DNA from: Flavobacterium tistrianum
GTDB lineage: Bacteria; Bacteroidota; Bacteroidia; Flavobacteriales; Flavobacteriaceae
DNA: 64,000 bases
Assembly: GCF_003254545.1 (NCBI RefSeq)
Contig: NZ_QJRH01000068.1
Coordinates: 62,001-126,000, forward strand
Reading direction: 5' to 3'
Positions 28,765 to 60,743 of this stretch are shown here, in pieces. The position numbers and the translations under genes were made by a program. The first letter of the stretch is position 1. Each line of letters begins with the position of its first letter. The notes beneath the pieces are model-generated. The model was not told the DNA's origin and did no database searches. It worked only from the letters and a program-made list of their open reading frames with translations.

Positions 28765-28860
28765 GGGCGTGTTTCACAGCGGCGAACCGGGCTATCCGCT
28801 AAATCTTTTTCTTTTTAAAGAAAAAAGAAAAAGGATATCGCTCCTATCCCTCACGCGTCC
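28765..28860. repeat. Structured intergenic repeat with Lys-rich spurious frame
   Basis: This segment (GGGCGTGTTTCACAGCGGCG, then CGGGCTATCCGCTAAATC, then CTTTTTCTTTTTAAAG and its mirrored complement, then GATATCGCTCCTATCCCTCACG) resembles a hairpin repeat that I recall from Bacteroidota genomes. Its inner palindrome is at 28805-28833. It explains why an ORF appears open upstream of the MdaB start; it is not coding. Confidence 0.65.
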
Positions 28861-28885
28861 ATTTTCAAAAGAAATAACAATTAAA

Positions 28886-45843: not shown

Positions 45844-46851
45844 TTACCCCCCGATTGCAATCATACTACGATTATCTGAATGAAGTGTTGGATCATTAAT
45901 TTCATTAACTTTTGCCATTCCTGCCCTTACTTTCTTTTTATTCTGAATCGATTCTGAAATCAAATTAGTGATGGGTTCTCCATTTCTAAAAGCCGTTAAC
46001 AAATCAGTTTCAGAATTGGAGAAAAGACAGTTTTTAATTTTCCCATCAGCCGTCAAGCGAATTCTATTGCAGCTATCACAGAACGGATTTGTAATGGAAC
46101 TAATAATTCCGAAATCGCCTTGAAAATCTTTTATTTTATAATTTCTAGAAGTGAAGTTTTTTTCGTCTTCTAATTTCAGAATTTCATCTGATGAAAATTG
46201 GGTTTCAACTAATGATAAAATCTCTTTCTGCGAAACCATTTTACTTCTATCCCACTCGTTTCCTGCAAAAGGCATAAATTCGATGAAACGAACTGAGATT
46301 GGGAGAAACTGAGTCAATTTTACAAAATCAACAATTTCCTTCTCATTAAAACCTTTAATCAAAACTACATTTACTTTTACCTGAAAATCATGATTCAAAA
46401 GCAAATGCAGATTATCAATCACTCTCTCAAACTGATTTCTAAGCGTTATAGAATGAAATTTAAACGAAACCAAAGTATCTAAACTCAAATTGATTTTTTT
46501 GACATTAAACTGTTTTAAAACCTCAATATAACGATCAATTAAAATTCCGTTTGTAGTCAAAGAAAGTGAAATATCTAACTGAGATAGTTTAGAAACTATT
46601 TCTTGAAAATCTTTTCTTAGTAAAGGTTCACCGCCTGTTAACCTGATTTTGTCAACACCATTTTTTACGAAAGTTTGGGCAATGGCAAAAATCTCGTCTG
46701 ACGTCATTAAACTGGCCTTTGGAGAAAGTGCAATTCCATCAGCTGGCATGCAGTACGTACAACGCAAGTTGCATTTTTCCAACAACGAAATGCGCAAATA
46801 ATTGTGCTTGCGCCCAAAACCATCCGTTAAAATAGTGTTAGAGGCTGTCAT
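45844..46851 (-). CDS. moaA: GTP 3',8-cyclase (molybdenum cofactor biosynthesis protein A)
   Basis: A 335-residue radical SAM enzyme that, with MoaC, turns GTP into cyclic pyranopterin monophosphate. The N-terminal cluster CNLRCTYC (CxxxCxxC) binds the SAM-cleaving 4Fe-4S; the C-terminal CDSCNRIRLTADGKIKNC ligates the second cluster that binds GTP; the protein ends in the conserved GG (MIAIGG). It overlaps the upstream moaCB gene by 14 bp, showing translational coupling, and is the last gene of the cluster. Confidence 0.97.
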   Translation of the reverse strand: MTASNTILTDGFGRKHNYLRISLLEKCNLRCTYCMPADGIALSPKASLMTSDEIFAIAQTFVKNGVDKIRLTGGEPLLRKDFQEIVSKLSQLDISLSLTTNGILIDRYIEVLKQFNVKKINLSLDTLVSFKFHSITLRNQFERVIDNLHLLLNHDFQVKVNVVLIKGFNEKEIVDFVKLTQFLPISVRFIEFMPFAGNEWDRSKMVSQKEILSLVETQFSSDEILKLEDEKNFTSRNYKIKDFQGDFGIISSITNPFCDSCNRIRLTADGKIKNCLFSNSETDLLTAFRNGEPITNLISESIQNKKKVRAGMAKVNEINDPTLHSDNRSMIAIGG

Positions 46852-47752
46852 GATTTTTTCCTTTTAAAATATGAAAGACGTGCATTACATGCGGAAAAAC
46901 AGCATCCATCGATTCTCTTACCCCGTTTGTTGAACCCGGCAAAGCTAAAACTAGACTTTTGCCCAAAATTCCCGCAACACTTCTCGAAAGCATTGCATAT
47001 GGCATTCTTTGCTGACCATAATTGCGAATCGCTTCTTCAATTCCCGGAATTCTACTTTCTAAAATCGGTTCTAAAGCTTCTGGCGTAACGTCTCTTGGAG
47101 ACAAACCAGTTCCACCTGTAAAAATCACCAGCTGATTATCTTTAGCGAAAGCTTTTGTTTTTTCTTGAATAATATCCAATTCGTCTGGAATGATTTCATA
47201 ATGAGAAGTCTCGACTCCGTATGAACCTAATTTTTCTACAATGGTTTTTCCTGAACGATCTTCTTTATCGCCCGCAAAAATCGAGTCGGAACAAACGAAA
47301 ACTGCTGCTTTTATAGCATTCGGGAATTTATTTTTAAAGGACGATTTTCCGCCTTCTTTATTGATTAATTTGATGGTTGAAATTTCGATTTCTTTATCAA
47401 TTGGTTTCAACATGTCATACATTGTAAGCGCTACAATCGACGCACCATGCATGGCTTCAACCTCAACTCCTGTTTTATAAACTGTTTTTACATTGAAGAT
47501 AATATGAATTTCTAATCCTTCAATATTATATTCAACAGAAGTATATTCAATTGGAAGCGGATGGCAATCTGGAATGGACAAATGGGTATTTTTTACCGCA
47601 AACAAACCCGCAGTTTTTGCCATTTCCAGTACATTGCCTTTTGGCACTAAATTATTGACAACAGCATCAATTGTTTCTTGTTTACTGACTTTTACAATTG
47701 CAGTTGCGGTTGCTTTTCTTAATGTGCTTATTTTATGCGTAATATCTACCAT
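46838..47752 (-). CDS. moaCB: Bifunctional MoaC-MoaB/MogA fusion
   Basis: A 304-residue fusion. Residues ~1-145 are MoaC, cyclic pyranopterin monophosphate synthase (MVDITHKISTLRKATATA, CHPLPIEYTSVEY, VEVEAMHGASIVALTMYDM). Residues ~150-304 are a MoaB/MogA domain, molybdopterin adenylyltransferase (FVCSDSIFAGDKEDRSG, VIFTGGTGLSPRDVTPEA, LALPGSTNGVRESM). The fusion couples the second step of the pathway to the adenylylation step that precedes MoeA. It is translationally coupled to moaA by overlap and follows moaE by 9 bp. Confidence 0.95.
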   Translation of the reverse strand: MVDITHKISTLRKATATAIVKVSKQETIDAVVNNLVPKGNVLEMAKTAGLFAVKNTHLSIPDCHPLPIEYTSVEYNIEGLEIHIIFNVKTVYKTGVEVEAMHGASIVALTMYDMLKPIDKEIEISTIKLINKEGGKSSFKNKFPNAIKAAVFVCSDSIFAGDKEDRSGKTIVEKLGSYGVETSHYEIIPDELDIIQEKTKAFAKDNQLVIFTGGTGLSPRDVTPEALEPILESRIPGIEEAIRNYGQQRMPYAMLSRSVAGILGKSLVLALPGSTNGVRESMDAVFPHVMHVFHILKGKNHDSL

Positions 47753-47761
47753 TATAATTTA

Positions 47762-48193
47762 TTAGGTATTTTGTTTCCAAGTGAACGTATCGTTTTCAAA
47801 CATTTCTTTACCAAAAATTGGAACATCTGTCTTAATCCAGTTTACAATGGCTTCTGTCGCTTCATAAACCTGCTTGCGGCGCGTAGCCGATACAAAAACA
47901 AACAAACAGATTTCGCCTGCTTTTACAACGCCCAAACTGTGATAAATGTGCATACAAGTTAAATCAAATTTGGCGAAAGCTTTTTCTCGAATCGCATATA
48001 ATGCTTCATTTGCCATATCTTTATATGCCGAATAATCAATTGCTACGACTGTATTATCGTGAATAACATCGGCGCGGACTTGCCCTAGAAAAATATTGTG
48101 GGCCCCAATTGTGTGTTTAGATTGATGTTTGGCGATCGATTCGGCTATAAATTCAGGAGAAATCGGTCCTTCTACAAATACATTTTTACTCAT
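47762..48193 (-). CDS. moaE: Molybdopterin synthase catalytic subunit MoaE
   Basis: A 143-residue MoaE, the large subunit that transfers two sulfurs from thiocarboxylated MoaD to cyclic pyranopterin monophosphate. Family motifs are NIFLGQVRADVIHDNTV, CMHIYHSLGVVKAGEICLFV and SATRRKQVYEATEAIVNWIK with active-site Arg/Lys. It is within the moa cluster, and a palindromic repeat lies upstream of its start, between it and moeB. Confidence 0.96.
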   Translation of the reverse strand: MSKNVFVEGPISPEFIAESIAKHQSKHTIGAHNIFLGQVRADVIHDNTVVAIDYSAYKDMANEALYAIREKAFAKFDLTCMHIYHSLGVVKAGEICLFVFVSATRRKQVYEATEAIVNWIKTDVPIFGKEMFENDTFTWKQNT

Positions 48194-48209
48194 TTTTTAC
48201 GTTTTTTCC

Positions 48210-48316
48210 GCCACGAATTCACGAATTAATCCAATACTTTGCGGATAGATTTTAAAAAATAAAATCGCGAAATATAAATTACACAAAGATTACATGATAA
48301 TTCGTGAATTCGTGGC
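48210..48316. repeat. Palindromic repeat, GCCACGAATT family, copy 2
   Basis: Perfect 19-bp arms GCCACGAATTCACGAATTA (48210-48228) and its complement (48298-48316). The repeat's last base is shared with the TAG stop of moeB (complement of 48316-48318), so the element sits exactly at the end of that gene inside the Moco operon. Confidence 0.9.
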
Positions 48317-49383
48317 TATATCATTTCTTCTTTCAATACATTTTTCATTGCCAAAGCTCCGCCTGCAATACTTTTTATATTTTTAAATCGATGCTTCTGA
48401 AGCAATTCGAACGCAATTTTGCTTCTAATTCCATATTGGCAGAAAACATATATTTTTTTATTCTTATCCAGTTTTTCGATTTCCTTTTCCAAATTCATTA
48501 ACGGAATCTGAATTTGATTTTTTATATTAATTTTTGGTGATTCATCTGCATTTCGAACATCGAGAAAAAGAACCTCATCATTGTCCATTTCATTCAAAAC
48601 CGATTCAAAACTCACTTCTTCAACTTTGCATTTATTATATTTTTCTTCGAATGTTTCTCTAGTTATGATTTGAAAATCACTTTTATCAAAATCATATTTT
48701 TGCTGTTCGTTGTTCAGCGTATTATAAACCAATATTTTTCCGTTTAAAACTTCTCCAATTCCGAGAATCATTTTTAGTACTTCATTTGCCTGAAACATCC
48801 CGATAATTCCAACTGAAACACCAAGAACTCCCGCTTCTTCACAATTTAATGTATTTAAATTTTCATCAGGATACAGACATCTATATGTTGGGCCATTTTG
48901 ATAATTGAAGACGGAAACTTGCCCTTGAAATCTAAAAATTGATCCGTAAACCATTGGTTTATGAGTTACCAGACAAGCATCGTTTATTAAATATTTGATT
49001 GCGATGTTGTCAGTTGCATCAACTATAATGTCATAGTTGTAAAACAACGAAATGGCATTTCTTCCCGATAATTTTTCTGAAACCGCTTTTACTTTCACTA
49101 AAGGATTTAATTCAGTAATCATCGCTTTTGCTTCCTTTACTTTTGATTTTCCAACGGCAGCGGTTTTATAAATTACCTGTCTTTGAAGATTTGAAATTTC
49201 AATAACATCTTGGTCTACAATTCCGATTTCACCAACTCCAGCTGCAGCCAGATACGGCAGAATCGCGGCTCCCAAACCTCCGGCGCCTATTACCAAAACT
49301 TTTGATTTTGATAATTTCTCCTGACCTTCTTCTCCTATTTCAGGAAGAATTATTTGTCTGTTATATTGGCTTATTGAACTCAT
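48316..49383 (-). CDS. moeB: MoeB/HesA-family MoaD adenylyltransferase with rhodanese domain
   Basis: A 355-residue E1-like enzyme. The ThiF/MoeB domain (residues ~1-245) has the ATP site VLVIGAGGLGAAILPYLAAA, the Arg/Asn-rich SNLQRQVIYKT and the catalytic-Cys region LNCEEAGVLGVSVG. The C-terminal rhodanese domain has active Cys in YVFCQYGIRSK. This activates the C-terminal Gly of MoaD and supplies sulfur, like human MOCS3. No CxxC zinc pairs are visible, which is unlike E. coli MoeB. It is 10 bp upstream of moaE's repeat and downstream of moaD. Confidence 0.93.
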   Translation of the reverse strand: MSSISQYNRQIILPEIGEEGQEKLSKSKVLVIGAGGLGAAILPYLAAAGVGEIGIVDQDVIEISNLQRQVIYKTAAVGKSKVKEAKAMITELNPLVKVKAVSEKLSGRNAISLFYNYDIIVDATDNIAIKYLINDACLVTHKPMVYGSIFRFQGQVSVFNYQNGPTYRCLYPDENLNTLNCEEAGVLGVSVGIIGMFQANEVLKMILGIGEVLNGKILVYNTLNNEQQKYDFDKSDFQIITRETFEEKYNKCKVEEVSFESVLNEMDNDEVLFLDVRNADESPKINIKNQIQIPLMNLEKEIEKLDKNKKIYVFCQYGIRSKIAFELLQKHRFKNIKSIAGGALAMKNVLKEEMI

Positions 49384-49393
49384 AAACTAATTT

Positions 49394-49633
49394 TTATCCT
49401 CCTGCAAACGGAGGCAATAAAGCTACTATATCATTGATTTTCAATGTATAATCTGTCGATTTTGGAACTATTTTTTGATTGACAGCCACGCTGAAAGTAA
49501 GTGCTTCAAATTCATATTTTTCGTTTAAATCTTGCAATAGTTTTTGCAATGATAATTCTTCAGAAAAAGATAACTTTTCAAATTCGCATTTTGTCTTTTC
49601 GGCAACAGCTCCAAAATATTTAACCTCAATCAT
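49394..49633 (-). CDS. moaD: Molybdopterin synthase sulfur carrier subunit MoaD
   Basis: A 79-residue ubiquitin-like protein ending in the essential Gly-Gly (PPFAGG). It carries sulfur as a C-terminal thiocarboxylate to MoaE. Length and the start VKYFGAVAEKTKCEF are standard. It lies directly between cobA and moeB (2 and 10 bp), matching its partner enzymes. Confidence 0.95.
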   Translation of the reverse strand: MIEVKYFGAVAEKTKCEFEKLSFSEELSLQKLLQDLNEKYEFEALTFSVAVNQKIVPKSTDYTLKINDIVALLPPFAGG

Positions 49634-49635
49634 TT

Positions 49636-50424
49636 TTATAAATTTAAATTCTGGAAAATAAACTCATCATCAAAATGTTCCTGAAAATAAGAAATCCAGC
49701 TTGATGTATTTCTAACCACTTCGCCAATTACAATAATGGCTGGTGATGATATGTTTTTTTCAGCCACCAATTTAGTAATTGTACTTATAGTTCCTATTAC
49801 TTTTTGCTCAGAATTTTTCGTTCCGTTTTGAATAATGGCAACTGGCAGATCGTCATTTCTGTTTTCTTGATAAATCGAAACAATCTCTTCCAATTTATGC
49901 ATTCCCATTAAAATAACAACCGTTGCTGCTGATTTTGATGCCAATTGAATATCTTTTGACAATTTATGATCTGAAGTTGTTCCTGTAATAACCCAGAAAC
50001 TCTCAGCTACTTTACGTTGCGTCAAACTAATTCCAACCGAAGCGGGAACTCCCAAAGCAGATGAAATTCCAGGAACAATGGCAGTTTTGATTCCGAAATC
50101 TTCTGCAAATTCAATTTCTTCACTTCCTCTTCCAAATACAAACGGATCGCCGCCTTTTAAACGAACCACATGTCCATGAGTTTTTGCCATTGAAACAATC
50201 AAATCGTTAATCTGATCCTGAGTGTAAGCGTAACAACCTAAACGTTTTCCAACAAAAACAATTTCTGCATTTGGTGCATAATTTAATAATTCTTCGTTTA
50301 CCAAAGCATCATACAAAACTACATCGGCACTTTTTAAAGCTTTTATGGCTTTCATTGTAATCAGTTCAACATCGCCAGGACCTGCGCCTACGATTGTCAA
50401 CTTGGGTGTTTTTAAAGTTTCCAT
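49636..50424 (-). CDS. cobA: Uroporphyrinogen-III C-methyltransferase
   Basis: A 262-residue SUMT: TIVGAGPGDVELITMKAIKA near the N-terminus, DVVLYDALVNEELL, VRLKGGDPFVFGRGSEEIE with the SAM-binding loop, and GISLTQRKVAES. It makes precorrin-2 from uroporphyrinogen III, the first step to siroheme and cobalamin. In a molybdenum-cofactor cluster it most likely supplies siroheme for a nitrite (or sulfite) reductase; it is the main hint that the cofactor serves nitrate assimilation. It is 2 bp from moaD and 6 bp from mobA. Confidence 0.95.
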   Translation of the reverse strand: METLKTPKLTIVGAGPGDVELITMKAIKALKSADVVLYDALVNEELLNYAPNAEIVFVGKRLGCYAYTQDQINDLIVSMAKTHGHVVRLKGGDPFVFGRGSEEIEFAEDFGIKTAIVPGISSALGVPASVGISLTQRKVAESFWVITGTTSDHKLSKDIQLASKSAATVVILMGMHKLEEIVSIYQENRNDDLPVAIIQNGTKNSEQKVIGTISTITKLVAEKNISSPAIIVIGEVVRNTSSWISYFQEHFDDEFIFQNLNL

Positions 50425-50430
50425 ATTGCT

Positions 50431-51003
50431 TTAAATTGAATTGATATTTAAATCATCTAATTCATCTGGCGAATTAACATTGGTGAAATGATAATTTTCA
50501 CTTTCTTCTATATTGATAATCTGATGTGGCAATTTTGCTAGCAGATCCATCATTTTTAATTCATTAGAATCAATTGCTTCTTTTATAACGGGAACAATAC
50601 TTTTTGAATAAATTCCGATTAAAGGATGGGTTTTACTTTCGGAAGCAAAAACTGTAATTCCAGCTTCACTTGTATGTTTTGAAATTAATTCTTGCAATAA
50701 TTCAGTTGAAATTAACGGAATATCACAACTTAAAATTAAATTGAATTCGGTTTCAGAGTGTGTAAGTGCCGTATAAATTCCTCCTATTGGGCCTTTGTCT
50801 AAAATAAGATCGGGTATTTTTTCATATTCAAGATAATCGTATTCTTTTGAAGCTGTTACCAGTTTTATTTTATTTGTAATAGGCAAAATTGCCTGAATTA
50901 TATGCTCTATAAATGGTTTTTCCTGAAACAAAACCAATCCTTTTTCTGACTGCATTCTGGAGCTTTTTCCTCCGCAAAGAATAAATACTGTTAGTGTTTT
51001 CAT
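50431..51003 (-). CDS. mobA: Molybdenum cofactor guanylyltransferase
   Basis: A 190-residue nucleotidyltransferase. The signature GGxSxRM plus Lys is present as LCGGKSSRMQSEKGLVLFQ, followed by DLILDKGPIGGIYTAL and the metal site SCDIPLIS. MobA attaches GMP to Mo-molybdopterin to form MGD, the cofactor of nitrate reductases and related DMSO-reductase-family enzymes. This predicts an MGD-dependent enzyme elsewhere in the genome, since none is in the window. cobA follows after 6 bp. Confidence 0.94.
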   Translation of the reverse strand: MKTLTVFILCGGKSSRMQSEKGLVLFQEKPFIEHIIQAILPITNKIKLVTASKEYDYLEYEKIPDLILDKGPIGGIYTALTHSETEFNLILSCDIPLISTELLQELISKHTSEAGITVFASESKTHPLIGIYSKSIVPVIKEAIDSNELKMMDLLAKLPHQIINIEESENYHFTNVNSPDELDDLNINSI

Positions 51004-51038
51004 AGTTTTCTTATTTCAGGTTTCTTTTGTCTATTCTT

Positions 51039-51201
51039 GCCACAGATTAAAAGGATTAAAAAGATTTCTTTAAATGCTTTGTGTTGATTTTTTTACCACG
51101 AATTACACAAATTTTCACAAATTATTTTTTTTAAATATGTAACTGAAATTCGTGTAATTCGTGGCAAAAAAAAAATCCTTTTAATCTGTTAAATCTGTGG
51201 C
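51039..51201. repeat. Nested palindromic repeat between TauE and mobA genes
   Basis: Outer arms GCCACAGATTAAAAGGATT (from 51039) and AATCTGTTAAATCTGTGGC (to 51201) flank inner arms CCACGAATTACACAAATT (51096-51113) and AATTCGTGTAATTCGTGG (51147-51164). The inner arms share the CCACGAATT word with the family at 29779 and 48210. The long hairpin interrupts the Moco operon. Confidence 0.8.
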
Positions 51202-51216
51202 AAAACCATATCATTA

Positions 51217-51963
51217 TCATGGAAAAATCAATTTCACGCTTGCCATTAAAATTACTGTTCCTAGAACCATTTTTAAAGTTCTGTTGGAGAAAGAGCCGCT
51301 TCCATAGAATCCGCCCAGCATTCCTCCTATAACTGCGATTGGAACTAAATAAAAACTTTCCATTGGAATTGTTTTTCCTCCTAAAAAGAATCCTAACATT
51401 CCGGCAAATGAATTCACAAAAATGAACAGACTCGAAATCGCTGCCGATTCTTTTACCGATGCCCATCCTAAAAATAACAGGATCGGACTCAAAATGATTC
51501 CTCCGCCAATTCCTAACATTCCAGATAATAATCCGATCGCAAAACCAATTGCCAGAGCAAACGGAAGATTTATTTTTACTTCTTCTTTTTCTTTAAAATT
51601 AAATACTCCAAACAATCTCAAGGCTGCAAAAACCAATACAATTCCGAGAATTATTTTATAAATCGCATTATCTAAAGTGATAAAACCTCCTATAAAAGCT
51701 GCTGGAATCGAAGCAATGGCAAACGGATAAAATAGCTTGGGCTTGAAATAATTATTTTTATAATAAAACAAAAACGAAATACTTGAAACAAACAAATTCA
51801 GCAGTAGAGCTGATGGTTTCATAATAGAAACTGGAAAAGCAAAAATGCTCATCAATGCCAAATATCCCGAAGCTCCGCCATGTCCAACACTTGAATATAA
51901 AAATGCAATTACAATTAATGCGAAACTGAATAATAGTATATTTTCGGAAGTTAGGAGACTCAT
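51217..51963 (-). CDS. TauE/SafE-family membrane permease
   Basis: A 248-residue polytopic membrane protein with about eight helices and two halves carrying the repeated motif (GHGGASGYLALMSIF in the N-terminal half, GMLGIGGGIILSPILLF in the C-terminal half) that defines the TauE/SafE (sulfite exporter) family. Family members move sulfite, sulfoacetate or other organic acids. Inside a Moco and siroheme cluster, export of sulfite or nitrite, or anion uptake, is plausible. It is 112 bp downstream of moeA and 214 bp upstream of mobA, with a palindromic repeat between. Confidence 0.9.
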   Translation of the reverse strand: MSLLTSENILLFSFALIVIAFLYSSVGHGGASGYLALMSIFAFPVSIMKPSALLLNLFVSSISFLFYYKNNYFKPKLFYPFAIASIPAAFIGGFITLDNAIYKIILGIVLVFAALRLFGVFNFKEKEEVKINLPFALAIGFAIGLLSGMLGIGGGIILSPILLFLGWASVKESAAISSLFIFVNSFAGMLGFFLGGKTIPMESFYLVPIAVIGGMLGGFYGSGSFSNRTLKMVLGTVILMASVKLIFP

Positions 51964-52075
51964 ATTTTTTGTTTAATCTTTTATTTGGTTAACTGTTTAA
52001 TCGTTTTTTTGCTATGTGTTTTTATTTATATAGCGCTTTTTACTTTTTGCCGTAAAATTTATTTTTTCAAGAACT

Positions 52076-53248
52076 TTAATCGATTGGGAGAATCGTTACC
52101 GACTCGCCTTTTTTAATATTTTCAACATCCTGCGGCACAATTACCAAACCATTTGCAATAGCAAAAGAATTTAACATTGAAGAGGCTTGTCCTTCTAAAA
52201 TTGTAACACTTGTTTCATTATATAATGCTTTTAAAAAAAGTGTTTTTCCTGTGTCATTGACAATGTCATTTTCTAATTTTCGAACAATTTTTGGCAAATG
52301 CGTATTCGAGAATCCCATTTTATTTTTAACTGCAGGATATACATAAATATAAAAATTAGTCAATGACGAAGCTGGATTTCCTGGCAATGCAAAAACTAAA
52401 GTATCTTTTTTAGAACCAAAAAACATCGGCTTTCCAGGTTTTTGATTGATTTTATAAAAAAGCTCTTCTACACCATTTTTCAGCAAAGCTTCTTTTACAA
52501 AATCATAATCTCCAACAGAGATTCCACCAGATATTAGCACTATATCATTCTTTTTAAGTATTGGCTTCAATGCTTTTTTCGTTGCTTTCAAATTGTCCTT
52601 TACCGTGTGAACTTTAACTTTATTAATTCCGATGGTTTGCAAAGCGGCTTGCAACATTACAGAATTACTCTCATAAATTTTTCCTTTAGGAAGTTTCTTG
52701 CCTGGTTTCACCAGCTCATTTCCAGTAACCAAAATGGCCACTTTCGGTTTTTTATAAACTGTTATTTCTGTGATTCCTAAACAGGCTAAAAATCCGATTG
52801 CTGCTGGAGTGATTAATGTATTGGCATCAAAAACAACATCCTCCGCATTAATCTGCTCTCCTTTATTTCTAACATTGGCCAAAGACTCTGGCATTTTTGC
52901 AATCAAAATCGAATCTCTGTTTACCATTACATGCTCCTGCATTACTACAGTGTCTGCATCATTAGGAACATACGCGCCAGTAAATATGCGAACAGCTTGA
53001 TTTTCTTTTAGTTTTATATTGGCATGATCGCCAGCCTGCGAAATTCCAACCACATCAAACTGATGTCTTCTTGAATGAATAAAAGCATAACCATCCATTG
53101 CTGATTGGCGAAACGGAGGCATTGAAATCGGCGAGTAAATTGTTTCTGGCAAAACATATCCGAGCGCTTTTTGAACAGAAATTTTCTGAGTAGACAAAAC
53201 TGAACTATTTGCAGCCACAATTTCTAAAGCTTCTTTTACTTCTATCAT
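52076..53248 (-). CDS. moeA: Molybdopterin molybdotransferase MoeA
   Basis: A 390-residue MoeA, which inserts molybdate into adenylylated molybdopterin. Signatures are PPFRQSAMDGYAFI, VRIFTGAYVPNDADTVVMQE, LVTGNELVKPGKKLPKGKIY and ISGGISVGDYDFVKEALLK. Length is normal. It is the first gene of the minus-strand Moco cluster, and a dyad (53274-53300) lies in its upstream region. Confidence 0.96.
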   Translation of the reverse strand: MIEVKEALEIVAANSSVLSTQKISVQKALGYVLPETIYSPISMPPFRQSAMDGYAFIHSRRHQFDVVGISQAGDHANIKLKENQAVRIFTGAYVPNDADTVVMQEHVMVNRDSILIAKMPESLANVRNKGEQINAEDVVFDANTLITPAAIGFLACLGITEITVYKKPKVAILVTGNELVKPGKKLPKGKIYESNSVMLQAALQTIGINKVKVHTVKDNLKATKKALKPILKKNDIVLISGGISVGDYDFVKEALLKNGVEELFYKINQKPGKPMFFGSKKDTLVFALPGNPASSLTNFYIYVYPAVKNKMGFSNTHLPKIVRKLENDIVNDTGKTLFLKALYNETSVTILEGQASSMLNSFAIANGLVIVPQDVENIKKGESVTILPID

Positions 53249-53434: not shown

Positions 53435-53651
53435 TATGCTTTTGTATCCATTTGAGTCTATTAAAAGTGCTGTTTTAGAGTTAAAAACAAGTATAAAATA
53501 CTACAATTTTAATCCAAGCGCAAAATTTATTTTAACATTTATCTGATTACAGAATTCTTTGTGATCCCTTTTAAAATAAGGGATAAACAAAACAAATCCT
53601 TCTTACAGCGCTTCGACAAACATATATTTTTCAAAAAAAACTCCTCAAACT

Positions 53652-53682
53652 TTTGGTTTTTATTATATAAAATTTAACTTTG
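53652..53682 (+). promoter_or_regulatory. Promoter of the SusC-sulfatase operon
   Basis: TTTG at 53652-53655, a 19-bp spacer and TAACTTTG at 53675-53682 match the Bacteroidota -33/-7 consensus exactly. Transcription should start near 53688-53690, giving a leader of about 485 nt before the SusC ATG. Confidence 0.78.
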
Positions 53683-53699
53683 TCTATAGGATTAGTAGA
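53683..53699. promoter_or_regulatory. Candidate operator at the transcription start
   Basis: TCTATAGGATTAGTAGA has inverted ends (TCTA and TAGA) and lies directly downstream of the -7 element, over the predicted start. A repressor bound here would block initiation. The protein is unknown. Confidence 0.4.
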
Positions 53700-53742
53700 G
53701 TTTAAAAATAATATTTCAAACCATAAAAACTATTATTGTGAA

Positions 53743-53822
53743 AACAACAGAAAGCATATCGCGTAACATTCTTCCTAAAAATTACACTTATAGCACTATT
53801 TGTTATATGTGTTTCTGTTGTT
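53743..53822 (+). other. Long hairpin in the 5' leader of the SusC operon
   Basis: AACAACAGAAA (53743-53753) and TTTCTGTTGTT (53812-53822) are perfect 11-bp inverted repeats; inside them ACACTTATA and TATATGTGT pair with one mismatch. The pairing forms a structured domain of about 80 nt in the leader RNA. I cannot match it to a known riboswitch. Confidence 0.6.
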
Positions 53823-54010
53823 AATAATCTACTTTCATTTTGTTTGCCTTTCGAGTTCATATCAAAGCAAAACATAAAAAACACCACCAAAAATATTTAC
53901 TGAATTTTAACCAAGAAATCTCCCTGAGACATTCAAAATGTGTTTGGCAGATTCTTGAAACCATACCTATTATTCAACAAATTAAATGACTAACAACTAA
54001 AAAGACTAAA

Positions 54011-54043
54011 ATGAAAACAATGCAAAGCTGTTGCTGTAAATAA
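54011..54043 (+). CDS. Cys-rich leader peptide ORF
   Basis: A 10-codon ORF, MKTMQSCCCK, ending at TAA 54041-54043, 133 bp before the SusC ATG and inside the operon leader. Codons 7-9 are TGT TGC TGT, three Cys in a row, which is very unlikely for AT-rich non-coding DNA of this genome. The upstream sequence (TAACAACTAAAAAGACTAAA) resembles other start contexts in the window. It is followed within 5 nt by a stable hairpin. This is the typical layout of a leader peptide that senses charged tRNA-Cys and so cysteine supply, a sensible signal for a sulfate-ester scavenging operon. Function is inferred. Confidence 0.65.
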   Translation: MKTMQSCCCK

Positions 54044-54048
54044 AAAAA

Positions 54049-54074
54049 GCCATTTCTGCGGCAACAGAAATGGC
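54049..54074 (+). promoter_or_regulatory. Leader hairpin competing with Cys-codon pairing
   Basis: GCCATTTCTG (54049-54058) and CAGAAATGGC (54065-54074) form a perfect 10-bp stem with a 6-nt loop. An alternative 10-bp pairing joins CTGTTGCTGT (54028-54037, the Cys codons) with GCGGCAACAG (54058-54067), using the loop and part of the 3' arm. The two folds exclude each other. No T-run follows, so it is not a plain terminator. Confidence 0.6.
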
Positions 54075-54116
54075 AAGGCTTAAAGAACATTTATCACTAA
54101 ATCAAGAACACTTTTA

Positions 54117-54138
54117 GAGTGCTGTATATACAGTGCTC
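54117..54138 (+). promoter_or_regulatory. Second leader hairpin before SusC
   Basis: GAGTGCTG and CAGTGCTC flank TATATA and pair over 8-10 bp, with two G-U pairs; the core CTGTATATACAG is a perfect palindrome. It lies 38 nt before the SusC ATG, at a position where it could affect translation initiation. Confidence 0.5.
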
Positions 54139-54176
54139 ATGGCGTCTTGTTAATTACTTAAAACCAACACAAAGAA

Positions 54177-57100
54177 ATGAAAAAAAAGTTAAACATACAC
54201 ATACTGCTGTTTCTACTCTTGATAACGGCAGGAATACAAGCCCAGAATACCACCCCACTCATTCAATCAAAACTAGATGGAACTGTTGTTGATGCTATTA
54301 CAAATCAACCTATTATAGGCGCTTCTGTCAATATTAAAGGAACAACTCACGGCGTTGTAACAGATACTGAGGGAAAATTCTATTTTCAAACGGGACAAAA
54401 ATTTCCTTACACCTTGATCGTAAGTTACATTGGATATAAAAAATTAGAAGTAATAGTTGAGAAAAATCCAGTCATTATTAACCTTAAAGAAGAACGTCAG
54501 GAACTAGACGAATTAGTAGTTGTAGGTTACGGAACTCAAAAAAGAAAAGACATTACAGGTTCTGTAGCTTCTGTACCAAAAGCCAATTTATCTCAGGTAA
54601 CTTCATCGGCAGATAATCTTTTAAGAGGTGCTGTAGCAGGAGTTGTAGTTACACAAAGTTCTGGGCGTCCAGGCGCTTCTTCGAGTGTTCGCATTCGCGG
54701 AGGAAACTCTATTACTGCTGGTAACGAGCCTCTTTATGTGGTTGACGGAATCTTAATTTATAACGATAACAGCAATAGCGGCGCTGGAGTAACTTATGCC
54801 GGGGCAAGTGTAAATGTTTTATCTACTATAAACCCTGCCGACATTGAATCTATAGAAGTTCTTAAGGATGCATCTGCAACAGCAATTTATGGTTCTCGCG
54901 GTGCTAATGGTGTTGTAATTATTACAACTAAAAAAGGAACCAAAGGACAAGATAATATTTCGTACCAAGGCTATTTTGGTTTCCAAAATATTTCCAAGAA
55001 ACTAAAATTAATGAATGCCAGCGAATGGGCAAGTTTAAGAAATGACGTTCAGGCTAGTATTGGTCAGGCTCCTTCTTTTTCTCCTGCACAAATCGAAGCT
55101 TTAAAAACTTCTGGAAATTACGATTGGCAGTCGGCTGCTTTTGTTACTGCAGCACCTGTACAAAATCATAATTTATCTTTTTCGGGCGGAGACGAAAAAT
55201 CAAGATATGCGGTTTCTGCAGGATATTTCGATCAAGACGGTATTGTTTTAGGCTCTGACTTTAAACGTATTTCGCTTCGAGCAAACTATGAAAGAAATTA
55301 TTCTCAGAAGTTCAAATTTGGTGTAAATGCCAATTATACCAATTCGATTGCAAATGGTGTTGGTACAAATGGAGGCGCAGCGGCCGGAAGAAATCCGAAC
55401 CCGCTTGTTAGTGTAGTTTTGACAGCTCCTGTAGTTCCTATTAAAAACGCAGATGGGAGTTACAATGTAACCAACAATCCTTACGCAACTTCTGTAAATG
55501 GTTATGTTCCTAATCCGATTAACGATTTGGATAATACGACAAACGAAACCAAATTAAACAGAATTCTAACTAGTTTATTTGGCGAATATAAATTCAATAA
55601 AGAATTGACAGCAAAAGTGGCTGTAAGTGGTGACGTTTTAAATACAAAACAAAATTACTATGCTCCTTCAAACACTACTACAGGTGCGGGAACAAAAGGT
55701 TTGGCATCTATTGGAGAAAGACAGGTAAGTTCAGTTTTAAACGAAAATACGCTGACTTACAACACTAATTTTGGAGAAAACCATAAATTTTCAGCTTTGG
55801 GAGGTTATACACTTCAATATACAAAAGGCGAAGTTGTGAATGCTGGTGCTCAGACTTTTGTTAATGATGCCAATACATACAATGCACTTCAAGATGGTGT
55901 GGCGGTAAAACCATACAGCGAAGCATACGAAAGTGTTTTGAAATCTTGGTTGGCAAGAGTTAATTATTCATATAAAGGAAAATACAACTTTACGCTTTCT
56001 GGACGTGCAGACGGTTCTTCTAGATTTGGTTCAGAATCTCTTTGGGGCTACTTTCCTTCTGCTGGATTTTCTTGGAATATTACTGACGAAGAATTTGCCA
56101 ACAATATTAAAGGCGTAACCGAAGCAAAACTGAGAATTACGGCAGGAACGACAGGAAACCAAGAAATTGGAAATTACCTTCCTCTGGCTTCAATGGGTTC
56201 TGTAAATTATTCTTTTGGAGGAACTTTATACACAGGTCTTGCTCCTACCCGATTGGCAAATCCAGATTTGAAATGGGAAAAAACAAATCAGTACAACGTT
56301 GGACTTGATTTATCCTTATTAGATCGAAAAATTAACTTTGTATTTGATGTTTATTATAAGAAAACAAAAGATTTGTTAATCAATGTTCCAGTGCCATTGA
56401 GCTCTGGTTATGCAACAGTACTTCAGAACATTGGAGGAGTTGAAAATAAAGGTTTTGAGGTTGGTGTAACAACTGAAAATATTAAAACAGAAAACTTCGC
56501 TTGGAATTCGAACATCGTTTTTTCTTTAAATAGAAATAAAGTTACAGAAATCGGAAATGGTGTAAACGAGTTTTTTCCTGTAGTGCCAAACGGATCTTTG
56601 CTGCAACAACAACCCGTAATTGTAAAAGTAGGCTTGCCTTTGGGAAGTTTCTGGGGATATAAAACCAACGGAATTTTCCAAACTCAGGAAGAAGTAAACA
56701 CACAGCCAAAAATCAATAGTTTGGCAAATACAAAAGTGGGAGACAGAAAATATGTAGATACCAACGGAGATGGCGTAATTACAGCTCTTGACAAAGGAAA
56801 CTTAGGAACCTCTCAGCCAAAATTTGTTGGAAGTTTCAGCAACACAGTTTCCTATAATGACTTTGACTTGAATTTCTCTTTTCAAGGCGCATACGGCGGA
56901 AAAATCTTCAATGCTTTAAATCAACAGTTAGAGATTTCTACCCTTGGAACTAACGCGGCAGCGACATTAAATGACCGTTGGACACCAACAAATCCAAGTA
57001 ACGAAATTCCGCGAGCTTCTAGTTCGCCACTTGGAATTGTTTCTGAACGCTATGTAGAAGATGCTTCTTTTCTAAGGTTAAAATTAATCACTTTAGGATA

Positions 57101-57308
57101 CACTTTGCCAAAAAGCACTTCTAAAAAATTGGGTGTAAAAGCGGTAAAAATATACGTCTCAGCAGAAAACTTAATTACATGGACCAAGTACACTGGCTAC
57201 GATCCAGAGGTAAGTTCATACGAACAAAACAACTTATATCCGGGAATCGATTTTGGTTCTTATCCAAACTCCAAAACATTCATCTCGGGCTTGAACGTAA
57301 CTTTCTAA
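54177..57308 (+). CDS. SusC/RagA-family TonB-linked outer membrane transporter
   Basis: A 1043-residue outer-membrane receptor. Signal peptide (LLFLLLITAGIQAQ), a CarboxypepD_reg-like domain (~32-110; GTVVDAITNQPIIGASVNIK), the TonB box region ELVVVGYGTQKRKDITGS, a plug (~115-230; VDGILIYNDN and DASATAIYGSRGANGVVII) and a 22-strand barrel ending in an aromatic strand (ISGLNVTF). SusC proteins import large ligands held by SusD, using TonB energy. It is the first gene of a sulfatase operon with SusD 15 bp downstream, so the cargo is likely a sulfated organic compound or glycan. Confidence 0.95.
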   Translation: MKKKLNIHILLFLLLITAGIQAQNTTPLIQSKLDGTVVDAITNQPIIGASVNIKGTTHGVVTDTEGKFYFQTGQKFPYTLIVSYIGYKKLEVIVEKNPVIINLKEERQELDELVVVGYGTQKRKDITGSVASVPKANLSQVTSSADNLLRGAVAGVVVTQSSGRPGASSSVRIRGGNSITAGNEPLYVVDGILIYNDNSNSGAGVTYAGASVNVLSTINPADIESIEVLKDASATAIYGSRGANGVVIITTKKGTKGQDNISYQGYFGFQNISKKLKLMNASEWASLRNDVQASIGQAPSFSPAQIEALKTSGNYDWQSAAFVTAAPVQNHNLSFSGGDEKSRYAVSAGYFDQDGIVLGSDFKRISLRANYERNYSQKFKFGVNANYTNSIANGVGTNGGAAAGRNPNPLVSVVLTAPVVPIKNADGSYNVTNNPYATSVNGYVPNPINDLDNTTNETKLNRILTSLFGEYKFNKELTAKVAVSGDVLNTKQNYYAPSNTTTGAGTKGLASIGERQVSSVLNENTLTYNTNFGENHKFSALGGYTLQYTKGEVVNAGAQTFVNDANTYNALQDGVAVKPYSEAYESVLKSWLARVNYSYKGKYNFTLSGRADGSSRFGSESLWGYFPSAGFSWNITDEEFANNIKGVTEAKLRITAGTTGNQEIGNYLPLASMGSVNYSFGGTLYTGLAPTRLANPDLKWEKTNQYNVGLDLSLLDRKINFVFDVYYKKTKDLLINVPVPLSSGYATVLQNIGGVENKGFEVGVTTENIKTENFAWNSNIVFSLNRNKVTEIGNGVNEFFPVVPNGSLLQQQPVIVKVGLPLGSFWGYKTNGIFQTQEEVNTQPKINSLANTKVGDRKYVDTNGDGVITALDKGNLGTSQPKFVGSFSNTVSYNDFDLNFSFQGAYGGKIFNALNQQLEISTLGTNAAATLNDRWTPTNPSNEIPRASSSPLGIVSERYVEDASFLRLKLITLGYTLPKSTSKKLGVKAVKIYVSAENLITWTKYTGYDPEVSSYEQNNLYPGIDFGSYPNSKTFISGLNVTF

Positions 57309-57323
57309 GTAAAAGATATTAAA

Positions 57324-58796
57324 ATGAAAAAGACAATTATAACATTACTTTTAAGCGCTGGTCTACTTGTATCTTGCGCTGATCTAGAGGTAACACCTAC
57401 CTCTTTTGTAACCGAAGACAATTACTTTATCACTCAAGATGATGCTACGGCTAGTGTAACTGCTGTTTATGCTTCTTTAAGCCTTGATCCAGGTGAGCAG
57501 AGTTTATTTGGTCGAAATCTTTATTTCTTGACTGATATGGGATCTGATTATGCAGCAGCGGGAGTTTCCGCAACAAATCCGCAAGTTAGAGCAATGAGCA
57601 GTTTAACCCACGATGCTACTAATGACCGCGTTCAGGTAGCATGGAGACAAATTTATAACGGAATCAATAGAGCTAATGTTTCGATTGACAACATCCCAAA
57701 AGTATCTGGTTCTGAAGTAATCAAAACTAGATTGATCAATGAAGCTAAATTCATCAGAGCATTGCTTTATTTTCAAGCAGTTCGTCTTTGGGGTGGAGTT
57801 CCAATTGTTTTGCATGAAGCTAAATCTATCAATTTGGGAGATTTAAAAACAAATCGCTCAACAGTTGACGAAGTTTACGCTCAAATCGTTAAGGATCTAA
57901 CCGATGCCGAAGCTCTTCCGAAAACGTATACAGCAGCAGATGCCGGACGTGCAACTTCTGGAGCAGCAAAAGCGATTTTAGCAAAAGTATACCTGACTAG
58001 AAAAGACTGGCCAAATGCTATTGCAAAATCGAGAGAAGTAATTAATGGCGGTTACGGATATGCATTATTTGAAGATTTTCAAGATATTTTCACCAAAACA
58101 AAAAAGAACGGAAAAGAGCATATTTTCTCTGTTCAATTTGAGCCAAATCAGGCAGGAAACGGTTCTAGCGGAAGTACTTTCCAATCTACTTCTTTTACCG
58201 GATTTACAGCAACAGAACCAGCAGATATTATTTCAGATGTTGCTTTGTTTTACGACATCTATGCACCTGGAGATAAAAGAAGAGATGTTAGTTATGCCAA
58301 ACAGCTTCTAAATCCAGCAACAGGAACGCTTTATACATTTCCTAAACCTATCTTCAAAAAATACTTGGATTTAAGCAATCTGGCAACTCCTGGAAATGTC
58401 GCGATCAACTTTCCTGTTATACGCTATGCAGACATCCTTTTGTCTTTAGCGGAAGCGATAAATGAACAAGGCGGACCAACTACAGAGGCATACGAATTGA
58501 TTAATCAAGTGCGAAGAAGAGCTTTTGGAAAAGCTATTACAACTCCAGATGCAACTGTCGACTTAGTTGGATTAAATCAGACTTCTTTCAGAGCTGCAAT
58601 TCAAGAAGAACGCAAAAAAGAATTTGTGCAGGAAGGACAGCGCTGGTACGATTTGGTAAGGTGGGGAACATTGGTTACCGAAGTAAAAAAAGTAACGGCT
58701 AAAAATTCAGTTTCAGAACGAAATAATCTCTATCCGATTCCGCAAAGCGAAAGAAACATCAACCCTGACGGGTTGCCTCAGAATCCTGGATATTAA
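57324..58796 (+). CDS. SusD/RagB-family nutrient-binding lipoprotein
   Basis: A 490-residue surface lipoprotein, with lipobox LLVSCADLEV (Cys18) and the tetratricopeptide-like SusD fold: EDNYFITQDDATASVTAVYA near the start, NGINRANVSIDNIP, FIRALLYFQAVRLWGGVPIV, and the C-terminal RYADILLSLAEAINEQGG, EERKKEFVQEGQRWYDLVRW and YPIPQSERNINP. It forms the lid of the SusC transporter and binds substrate at the cell surface. Separate from SusC by 15 bp. It may recognise a sulfated ligand, but no pocket residues can be assigned. Confidence 0.95.
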   Translation: MKKTIITLLLSAGLLVSCADLEVTPTSFVTEDNYFITQDDATASVTAVYASLSLDPGEQSLFGRNLYFLTDMGSDYAAAGVSATNPQVRAMSSLTHDATNDRVQVAWRQIYNGINRANVSIDNIPKVSGSEVIKTRLINEAKFIRALLYFQAVRLWGGVPIVLHEAKSINLGDLKTNRSTVDEVYAQIVKDLTDAEALPKTYTAADAGRATSGAAKAILAKVYLTRKDWPNAIAKSREVINGGYGYALFEDFQDIFTKTKKNGKEHIFSVQFEPNQAGNGSSGSTFQSTSFTGFTATEPADIISDVALFYDIYAPGDKRRDVSYAKQLLNPATGTLYTFPKPIFKKYLDLSNLATPGNVAINFPVIRYADILLSLAEAINEQGGPTTEAYELINQVRRRAFGKAITTPDATVDLVGLNQTSFRAAIQEERKKEFVQEGQRWYDLVRWGTLVTEVKKVTAKNSVSERNNLYPIPQSERNINPDGLPQNPGY

Positions 58797-58826: not shown

Positions 58827-60743
58827 ATGAAAAATTTTAAAAATAGCATTTCAATCAAAGGCTCTAAGAAAGGGCTTTTGATTACTGCTGTCCTAATTGC
58901 ACAATTAGGATTTGCACAGGAAAAACAAGAATTTAAGGGTACAATAGGGAAAACTTTAGCAGATTCTAAAGAATATTGGCCAGATCCTGTAACGGCACCA
59001 AAAGGCGCTCCTAATATTGTTTGGATTTTATTGGATGATGTTGGATTTGGAGCTTCAAGTGCTTTTGGAGGTTTAATCAACACGCCAACTTTCGAGAATC
59101 TGGCAAATAACGGTTTACGTTATACAAACTTCCATACAACAGCAATTTGTGCTCCTACCCGCGCCGCTTTATTAACTGGAAGAAATTCTGGAAGAGTTCA
59201 CGTAAGCGGATTTTCTCATACCATTTTATCAGCTGGTTTCCCAGGTTGGGACGGAAGAATTCCTTCTGATAAAGGAACAATTGCAGAAATCTTACGCGAC
59301 AACGGCTACAATACATTTGCTGTCGGAAAATATGGAGTTACGCCAGACGAAGATGCAACAGATGCAGGTCCTTTTGACAGATGGCCGACAGGAAAAGGTT
59401 TTGACCATTTCTACGGATTCTTAGGCTCTCAGACCGATCAGTACAATCCTGATTTGGTAGAAGATCAAGTTCATATTAAACCTGATGGGCGTCATTTGAA
59501 TGAATTGATTACAGATAAAGCAATCAGTTATATTCAAAAACAGCAAAAAGCTGCGCCAGGAAAACCATTTTTCTTGTATTATGCGCCGGGAGCAGTTCAT
59601 GCACCTCATCAAGTGGCTGAAAAATGGGTTGAACCGTACAAAGGTAAATTTGACGAAGGCTGGGATGTTTACCGCGAAAAAGTATTGGCTAACCAAAAGA
59701 AACTGGGAATCTTTCCTCAAAATGCAGGTCTTCCAGATCGTAACGCTTTAATTACAGAATGGAAAAAATTATCACCAGATCAAAAGAAAGTATACGCAAG
59801 ATTCATGGAAGTTTACGCTGGATTCTTAACGTATACAGATTATGAAATTGGAAGAGTTGTAGATTATTTAAAACAAAGCGGACAATTGGATAATACTTTA
59901 ATTTTTGTTGCCATTGGAGATAACGGCGCAAGTAAAGAAGGAACTCTTCAAGGAACAATTAACCAAAGTTTATTTGCTCAAGGAAAAACCGACGAAGAAA
60001 ACTTCCAAAGCAATTTGAACAATATAGGCGAAATCGGAACTGCAAAAGGCTTAAACACGAATTATCCTTTAGGATGGGCACAAGCAACAAATGCTCCTTT
60101 CAAAAACTGGAAACAAGATGCACAATCAGAAGGAGGAACTCGTAATCCGTTGATTGTTTTTTATCCAAACGGAATTAAAGATAAAGGCGGTATCAGAAAT
60201 CAGTACAGTCATGTAACAGACCTATTGCCAACTACTTTGGATATTGTTGGAATTAAAGCTCCAGAATATATTAAAGGAATCAAACAAGACATTATTCAAG
60301 GTTCAACTTTCAAAGCTTCTTTAGACAATCCAAAAGCTGAATCATTACATAAAGTGCAGTATTACTACATTTTTGGAAATAGAGCAATCTATAAAGACGG
60401 ATGGAAGGCTTCTGCAGCACACTTACCAGATTCTTTCGCAGTAAAAAAGTCTTTAGGAAGCAACGAAAAACCTGCTCCAAGTAACTTCGATACTGATGTT
60501 TGGGAATTATACAACCTAAACGAAGATTTTAACGAACGTAACAACTTAGCAAAAAAATATCCTGAAAAACTGGCTGAACTTCAAAAATTATTTGACGAAC
60601 AGGCAAAAGAAAATAATCTATATCCTTTAATCGATTGGCAGGATGTTTATAACAGAAGAATTCACAATACTGGTGCTGATAAAGGAAAAACAATTTCTGA
60701 TTTAATCAAACAGGCAACTAAACCTGGAGGAACCAATAACTAG
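58827..60743 (+). CDS. Periplasmic arylsulfatase
   Basis: A 638-residue sulfatase with a signal peptide (LLITAVLIAQLGFAQ). The formylglycine motif CxPxR is CAPTRAALLTGR (C108 to R112), metal-binding residues are in VWILLDDVGFG (D70, D71) and FVAIGDNGASKEG. CAPTR differs from the more common CSPSR, but the Cys needed for formylglycine conversion is present. It hydrolyses sulfate esters, releasing sulfate in the periplasm. The body is longer than AtsA-type enzymes because of inserts around 180-260 and 300-350. An 80-bp perfect inverted repeat follows it. Confidence 0.93.
   Translation: MKNFKNSISIKGSKKGLLITAVLIAQLGFAQEKQEFKGTIGKTLADSKEYWPDPVTAPKGAPNIVWILLDDVGFGASSAFGGLINTPTFENLANNGLRYTNFHTTAICAPTRAALLTGRNSGRVHVSGFSHTILSAGFPGWDGRIPSDKGTIAEILRDNGYNTFAVGKYGVTPDEDATDAGPFDRWPTGKGFDHFYGFLGSQTDQYNPDLVEDQVHIKPDGRHLNELITDKAISYIQKQQKAAPGKPFFLYYAPGAVHAPHQVAEKWVEPYKGKFDEGWDVYREKVLANQKKLGIFPQNAGLPDRNALITEWKKLSPDQKKVYARFMEVYAGFLTYTDYEIGRVVDYLKQSGQLDNTLIFVAIGDNGASKEGTLQGTINQSLFAQGKTDEENFQSNLNNIGEIGTAKGLNTNYPLGWAQATNAPFKNWKQDAQSEGGTRNPLIVFYPNGIKDKGGIRNQYSHVTDLLPTTLDIVGIKAPEYIKGIKQDIIQGSTFKASLDNPKAESLHKVQYYYIFGNRAIYKDGWKASAAHLPDSFAVKKSLGSNEKPAPSNFDTDVWELYNLNEDFNERNNLAKKYPEKLAELQKLFDEQAKENNLYPLIDWQDVYNRRIHNTGADKGKTISDLIKQATKPGGTNN

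Follow-up and report, generated by a model that had tools for sequence, protein, structure and literature searches.

Amino-acid attenuators of the trp, his and leu type carry a run of codons for the regulatory amino acid in a leader peptide, and leader peptides of the tnaC type stall the ribosome near their stop codon and act through Rho, with a nascent peptide that senses free tryptophan. Cysteine leader ORFs have reportedly been treated for Actinobacteria by Canestrari in 2020. In the available parts of two earlier papers, short ORFs with Cys codons beside the stop codon are placed ahead of cysteine genes in Actinobacteria, including Mycobacterium (PMC1262725, 2005; PMC4633059, 2015), and for the mycobacterial Cys leaders a Rho read-out was already proposed in print (PMC1262725). 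A further motif, uORFC-8-2, with tandem Cys codons and RNA structure, has been described upstream of cysS in Rhodobacterales (PMC8632094, section on this motif). For Bacteroidota, section 19 of a transcriptome study of F. psychrophilum gives clues to leader-peptide attenuation upstream of amino-acid operons, cysteine being unnamed in that section (PMC9723704), and sORFs reminiscent of leader peptides are mentioned in an excerpt on B. thetaiotaomicron. The preliminary description of the present locus considered a cysteine-sensing leader tied to SusCD/sulfatase uptake to be undescribed in this phylum, and no Cys leader peptide of Bacteroidota was indeed found among the matches listed from open-licence PMC papers, subscription papers and supplements lying outside that search.

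The window analysed here is the whole 64,000-nucleotide stretch of Flavobacterium tistrianum, and its positions are used throughout. It contains a SusC-SusD-sulfatase operon (Table 1) with a leader of about 490 nt that holds two Cys-tailed ORFs in series, LP1 and LP2. LP2 is the 10-codon poly-cysteine ORF claimed in the preliminary description and is real, but it is the smaller of the two, LP1 and the hairpin H1 having been overlooked. Cys codons near the stop codon, no conserved terminator and a proposed role for Rho are common to this leader and the mycobacterial ones, as these appear in the available parts of PMC1262725 and PMC4633059. The latter, however, belong to another phylum, whereas two ORFs in series, conserved hairpins and genes for SusCD-sulfatase uptake or encapsulin-desulfurase are found here; moreover, mycobacterial ORFs are leaderless according to a title, and LP1 may differ in this, its start codon lying 43-59 nt behind a presumed -7 element as counted from the TTTG. 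The uORFC-8-2 motif, in the section cited above, finishes with the U run that belongs to an intrinsic terminator and lies ahead of the gene for cysteinyl-tRNA synthetase, neither of which applies to the window's leader. The analogy with trp, his and leu attenuators, drawn at the outset, holds for the codon run but not for the classical terminator, a search of the sense strand in 53600-54300 having given none, and stalling near a stop codon together with Rho makes tnaC-type leaders resemble what is proposed below, Rho being a presumed partner in the window. In a second family, a Cys-tailed ORF stands directly behind SAM-I riboswitches (RF00162), whereas no Rfam family reaches its gathering score in the window's leader. 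The reading that we favour, with a probability of about 0.8, is that the operon leader senses cysteine twice, ribosome stalling on LP1 and LP2 permitting completion of the transcript through control of elongation, most likely by Rho.

Table 1. Features of the operon and its leader (window positions).
Feature	Positions	Strand	Evidence
Bacteroidota-type promoter: TTTGG (53652-53656), 18 nt, TAACTTTG (53675-53682)	53652-53682	+	pattern conserved
Candidate operator TCTATAGGATTAGTAGA, imperfect inverted repeat TCTA-N9-TAGA over presumed transcription start	53683-53699	+	conservation
LP1, GTG-start leader ORF, (V)KTTESISRNILPKNYTYSTICYMCFCC then stop	53738-53824	+	CYMCxCC-type tail, codon test, conservation
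LP2	54011-54043	+	translation MKTMQSCCCK then stop
H1 hairpin GCCATTTCTG-CGGCAA-CAGAAATGGC, 5 nt past LP2 stop	54049-54074	+	MFE -15.5 kcal/mol, z -4.2
Linker GAACATTTATCACTAAAT between H1 and H2	54085-54102	+	conserved, by eye on alignments
H2: outer stem 54103-54106/54146-54149, inner stem 54117-54124/54131-54138	54103-54149	+	covariation
susC, operon gene 1	54177-57308	+	TIGR04056 2e-274
susD	57324-58796	+	SusD_RagB 3.5e-33
Sulfatase	58827-60743	+	PF00884 5.7e-63
Rhodanese-thioredoxin protein, same gene run	62046-62762	+	PF00581, PF00085
Second sulfatase-like gene, continues past window end	62855-64000	+	arylsulfatase model NF010322 1.1e-27, under cut-off

A fatty-acid-hydroxylase family protein is encoded between the first sulfatase and the rhodanese-thioredoxin gene. 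Directly upstream of the leader, on the minus strand (45844-53248), lies what we take, from naming by eye, to be a molybdenum cofactor gene run, with genes for a methyltransferase of the siroheme type and for a membrane protein resembling TauE/SafE. Elsewhere in the window, at 28781-28864 on the minus strand, there is a Flavo-1 RNA (RF01705, 57.3 bits).

Comparison among leaders shows that LP1 and LP2 both code for peptides and that selection favours their Cys codons. As in amino-acid attenuators, the leader carries a run of Cys codons that is kept at codon level and, as in the mycobacterial ones, this cluster forms the C-terminus of the leader ORFs. The codon tests were made on sets unselected for the tested feature, with related sequences and pN/pS computed without a tree; on this footing, codons 22-28 of LP1 gave pS 0.54, pN 0.026 and pN/pS 0.047 in 22 distinct sequences (whole LP1, 0.36), against 1.32 and 0.61 in the frames shifted by +1 and +2. 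For the Cys codons of LP2 the values were pS 0.68, pN 0.17 and pN/pS 0.26 (whole LP2, 0.43; shifted frames, 1.66 and 0.91), calculated for 47 of 59 distinct LP2 sequences, namely the 33-nt ones in SusC or cut-off loci, degenerate forms included. A test for purifying selection on these codons had been proposed in the preliminary description.

A 172-nt leader query found matches in 35 of the 150 genomes of the genus, and all 27 near-full-length leader matches (L004-L030, own genome included) have an LP2 of the same type, ending mostly in CCCK, with CCFK in L005 and L006 and HCCK in L030. More distant leaders before other SusC genes have the variants MKKRMCCR, MKLMCCK, MKRSCC and MKIMTSCCCR, and degenerate forms also occur, such as MKIMHCPFHS, MKKRMHSR, MKKRMCR and MKNQMYCI (among L034-L037 and L048-L050). 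When SusC loci were picked by LP1 alone, 64 of 70 had a Cys-Cys LP2 and six a degenerate one (among the matches listed, many being close relatives). Conservation in Flavobacterium leaders, put forward in the preliminary description as a check, is thus seen in the ORF and in its Cys codons, with synonymous exchange of TGT and TGC, but the Cys run is lost in some paralogues. Another leader of this kind in the own genome, with MKKRMCCR and H1 (L052, contig 71, 361739-361834), stands before a SusC-SusD pair, and no sulfatase was found after that pair in the stretch read. A promoter-like site nearer to LP2, TTGGCA-N18-TATTAT, could possibly serve as a separate promoter, six promoter-like sites having been found against 3.3 expected.

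Among 47 loci picked via the downstream part of the leader (LP2/H1), LP1 was anchored in 37 by its start region, with at most 7 mismatches over 23 positions, and all 37 have at least three Cys among the last seven residues, the tail being rearranged in seven of them (CCMCFCC twice, CCCMCNCF, CCCMCFCC, and RMCCCC three times, as in SRMCCCC and GRMCCCC). It was unanchored in the other ten, one of which (L015) has an LP1 with another start; since, besides, LP2 is degenerate in some loci, neither peptide is indispensable. A pattern scan of named genomes for the CYMCxCC tail, with the amino acids fixed and TGY and TAY left open, gave at least 119 stretches, so that LP1 loci exist beyond these 119. 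Eight were dropped: L150, L153, L179 and L209 as chance or unrelated matches, L215, L219 and L223 as cut off or with the frame unread, and L162 because of another start; the remaining 111 were classed. Of 395 genomes across the phylum, 12 had the pattern; 11 of these belong to the own genus, and in the remaining one (G181/L259) the match was rejected as chance, sitting within coding sequence.

Cysteine-responsive ribosome stalling fits these observations best, where we infer the stalling, the direction of its effect and the read-out. A ribosome would translate LP1 and then LP2 and, under a shortage of charged tRNA-Cys, slow at the Cys codons next to the stop codon; with the ribosome stalled, the transcript would be completed, SusC, SusD and sulfatases would be made and organic sulfate would be taken up, while plentiful cysteine would let both peptides be finished and the operon be switched off within the leader. 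The read-out would lie in transcription elongation, with Rho as the most likely agent, since no intrinsic terminator was found on the sense strand in 53600-54300 and the spacer behind LP1 is rich in C and poor in G. In the window, the LP1-LP2 spacer has 36 C and 17 G, an excess of C that is a modest outlier, being equalled in 82 of 2554 window stretches (3%), and in other loci the spacer behind LP1 has on average 22-24 C against 11-13 G over 120 nt. The 3' edge of a ribosome lies about 15 nt from its P site. A ribosome on the Cys codons of LP2 would accordingly leave H1 free and one on the stop codon would cover its first bases; H1 would therefore fold in the starved state and must, under this scheme, favour expression.

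The missing sense-strand terminator would also fit if stalled ribosomes altered H1/H2 and so opened the susC ribosome binding region, or handed ribosomes on, with transcription unaffected. Such translation attenuation, which we hold possible if unlikely, would be the closest to mycobacterial reports, having been described for cysteine genes of M. smegmatis (in the part available of PMC13236596), and it would give a role to the conserved hairpins between LP2 and susC. However, the 27-nt stretch that separates H2 from the susC ATG is rich in A/T and stays unpaired in the minimum-energy folds made, and there is no coupling overlap, the LP2 ORF ending 133 nt upstream of susC.

The genes behind these leaders bear on what is sensed. 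The first gene behind LP1 in the 111 classed loci was SusC in 70, sulfatase in 17, serine acetyltransferase in eight, encapsulin in one and metX in two (Mucilaginibacter), the last 13 lying at a locus end (among the matches listed), so that an LP1-type peptide stands ahead of SusC, sulfatase, serine acetyltransferase (SAT) and encapsulin genes alike. In F. johnsoniae strain CI04 (L202), LP1 and H1 precede a sulfatase operon. An operon of the SAT type (L155) encodes a serine acetyltransferase, a cysteine synthase, a family 2A encapsulin shell and a cysteine desulfurase cargo; the cysE model stayed under its cut-off and EpsC was over it, as were cysK, encapsulin-2A and the cargo cysteine-desulfurase. 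By eye, L148 and L169 have the same four genes and, as far as read, L139 and L224 the first three. Family 2A encapsulins are of a type involved in sulfur metabolism, according to the part available of PMC8049743. By family models, the downstream genes are thus predicted to supply cysteine (SAT, cysteine synthase, sulfatase, uptake), and the link to susC and sulfatase made in the preliminary description stands as far as cysteine and sulfur acquisition is concerned, but leader ORFs with Cys tails also occur ahead of genes other than susC.

Peptides of unrelated sequence have the same kind of tail behind SAM-I riboswitches. In two Mucilaginibacter MAGs (L133:7404-7427, minus strand; L177:1892-1915, plus strand), a 33-codon ORF ending in ICYMCRCC lies between a SAM riboswitch (RF00162, 79.9 and 79.3 bits) and a metX-like gene that stays under the MetX model cut-offs; its peptide is unrelated to the Flavobacterium LP1 and its tail nearly identical. 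Several of 20 SAM riboswitch leaders from the phylum sample also have, under a looser rule, Cys-rich ORFs before metY or a gene for a secreted/TonB-type protein. In the second-family sample (f3, centre G619), SAM matches were present in 98 of 101 genomes, and 90 leaders were taken as the best 30 matches plus 60 picked down the list, not as a random draw; two stretches without a gene were dropped. A Cys-tailed ORF between aptamer and gene was found in 26 of the 88 leaders counted and in none of the 88 on the reverse strand. By the type of the following gene, which we assume from sequence motifs, the forward ORFs precede metY in 20 of 33 cases, metX in two of four and other genes in four of 18, against none of 33 for metH (9), metE (6), NifS-like (8), peroxiredoxin (5) and homoserine dehydrogenase (5) genes. 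In another count, with five more stretches left out and the two Mucilaginibacter loci added, 25 of 85 had such an ORF, where shuffles led to an expectation of 0.78. The Cys rule applied to other residues in the same 88 leaders gave leucine tails in 24, serine in six, phenylalanine in five, lysine in two, histidine in one, and tryptophan and methionine in none; leucine is a common residue, and the specificity for Cys therefore rests on the contrast between genes and on the zero of the reverse strand. In the 12 spacers behind these Cys ORFs that were folded, no U-tract terminator was seen by eye.

Such diversity has to be set against the idea that the peptides are arrest peptides, or metal or redox sensors with Cys as ligand, and not sensors of charged tRNA-Cys. 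A constraint of this kind might be read from the TGT TAT ATG of the tail, invariant even at silent positions in 108 distinct LP1 sequences with a CYMCxCC tail (among the matches listed). Nonetheless, it is improbable: rearranged tails keep their Cys count (MCCCC, CCCMCFCC, CCMCFCC), LP2, a short peptide of another sequence, shares the run of codons, the genes are those of sulfur acquisition and cysteine synthesis, and the peptides of metY leaders (L297, L310, L360, L373, L380, L332 and others) share little else than a run of up to five Cys. Stalling on the Cys codons would be the simplest cause, because unrelated types of peptide have the same codon run with sulfur genes behind.

The presumed start of the transcript is strongly conserved. 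The TTTGG-N18-TAACTTTG pattern, which we take to be the Bacteroidota promoter consensus, is present in 107 of 112 LP1 loci (window included; among the matches listed), the exceptions being the two of Mucilaginibacter, two cut short and one with N or a changed sequence, and the positions of TTTGG and TAACTTTG are 97-100% identical in 90 distinct sequences. The candidate operator that follows reads TCTATAG(A/G)ATTAGTAGA and is near-invariant across SusC, sulfatase and SAT loci: 16 of its 17 positions are at least 98% identical in the 90 distinct sequences, position 8 being G in 51 and A in 39. With up to 3 mismatches allowed, the own genome has a single copy of the 22-nt TTTG...GAG pattern. Such an imperfect palindrome, spanning the presumed start, hints at an additional regulatory protein, for which the TCTA-N9-TAGA repeat would be the operator.

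Hairpin H1 is identical at 26 of 26 nt in 43 of 43 aligned leaders, which therefore yield no covariation signal. In 27 more diverse leaders its outermost pair is G-C in 17, A-U in seven and broken in three, and the base reads GGTC/GACC or GGATC/GATCC in sulfatase leaders. The first part of the linker (GAACATTTATCAC) is also found behind H1 in sulfatase and encapsulin leaders. H2 does vary: in 43 sequences, four of the eight pairs of its inner stem are changed on both sides, with frequent G-U pairs, which argues for an RNA structure and not a DNA palindrome. Its covariation score was 0.128 against 0.089 in shuffles, with none of 500 shuffles as high, a kind of score that can be lifted by relatedness alone; two of five measures were weak, further pair types numbering 12 against 13.2 in shuffles and changes on both sides being reached by 14 of 500 shuffles. 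Other structures did not hold: one candidate alternative pairing, of the linker with the 3' arm of H2, had no covariation; pairing of the LP2 Cys codons with GCAAC of the H1 loop, attractive in the window, is by eye lost in MCCR leaders; and a hairpin behind LP1 (H0), folded one by one, looked inconsistent among loci.

H1 is kept in 14 of 17 sulfatase leaders with LP1 but without a Cys LP2 (among the matches listed). H1-like hairpins also lie a short way ahead of SusC-like genes in five further genera (L068, L070, L073, L081, L090), with A-rich sequence before them and an apex of CTGCTGCAACAG and variants, CTGC(T/G)GCAACAG or TTGCAG, and no ORF with at least two Cys was found in the 150 nt searched near them. 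Being present without a Cys LP2, H1 would be independent of LP2 and not cysteine-specific; it is probably a general susC-leader element with which the Cys peptides work, and not the cysteine sensor itself. In three sulfatase leaders (L045, L199, L205), a short ORF (MKMETTN, for example) precedes H1, flanked by AATCAAAAA and TTTTTGATT, a pair that may form a hairpin hiding the start of the MKMETTN-type ORF.

Searches with RNA models did not show a wide spread of H1 in the family and phylum genomes. Model R1 (LP2-H1) had strong matches in three of 397 family genomes, all of the own genus, and matches with E of 5.6e-4 to 0.036 in nine others; in 296 phylum genomes it gave one weak match outside the genus. 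Outside the genus there were 11 distinct places, five of which are H1-like hairpins shortly before a SusC-like gene (G170, G266, G270, G292 contig 10 and G809), those of G266, G270 and G292 adjoining SusC matches and the genes of G170 and G809 being named by eye, and one of the 11 (L067, a short locus) was not properly read. Model R2 (hairpin only) matched in 90 of the 296 phylum genomes; of 30 matched loci examined, ten are own-genus leaders of known type (L405 unread, a short locus), and the other 20 comprise one SusC leader (G809), mostly terminator-like sites and L431, not properly read.

Strict conservation and a palindromic shape would also suit H1 as a DNA operator or, given a terminator-like site (hairpin plus T7) that coincides with it on the minus strand at 54074-54049, as the terminator of an antisense RNA, with the ORFs of minor importance; most of the weak matches outside the genus are likewise terminator-like. 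We give this little credit, since about 360 nt separate H1 from the presumed start upstream of it, the T-run of the minus strand is missing in some sulfatase leaders (L045) and present in others (L046), and the conservation of the Cys codons would be left unexplained. As a general operator H1 was rejected: its stem occurs at 0 mismatches in two places of the own genome only, both leaders of this kind, with eight more at 2-3 mismatches against two for the reversed pattern.

That the ORFs are chance frames within a conserved RNA, parts of the leader being conserved at nucleotide level, is very improbable and already contradicted by the frame-specific excess of silent changes, by the absence of Cys-tailed ORFs on the reverse strand of the 88 SAM leaders against 26 forward and by the low probability of Cys-tailed frames in random sequence. 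In 20,000 first-order Markov sequences derived from the 494-nt leader, 0.45% had an ORF whose last five residues include three or more Cys and 0.15% had two or more such ORFs, a count in which ORFs with a common stop are taken separately, so that the four observed are two ORFs with alternative starts.

Beyond this operon, we lean, with a confidence not far above even, towards a Cys-run leader sensor that would be widespread in Bacteroidota. In Flavobacterium, LP1 and LP2 would act in series together with H1, and H1 with its GAACATTTATCAC linker would itself be a new RNA element of susC, sulfatase and encapsulin leaders that might serve in antitermination and has looser relatives before the SusC genes of other genera; in the second family, a SAM-I riboswitch and a Cys ORF ahead of metY would read the supplies of both S-adenosylmethionine and cysteine. 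The leaders described here would provide a concrete leader-peptide regulon of Bacteroidota with codon-level evidence and a handle on when organic sulfate is stripped. The MKKRMCCR leader suggests that the orphan SusCD pair behind it imports a sulfur source, and its substrate may be a sulfur compound. The family 2A encapsulin and its cysteine desulfurase would be tied to a cysteine-starvation signal, and a SAM riboswitch and a Cys leader in one transcript would be a two-signal RNA logic element, responding to S-adenosylmethionine and cysteine.
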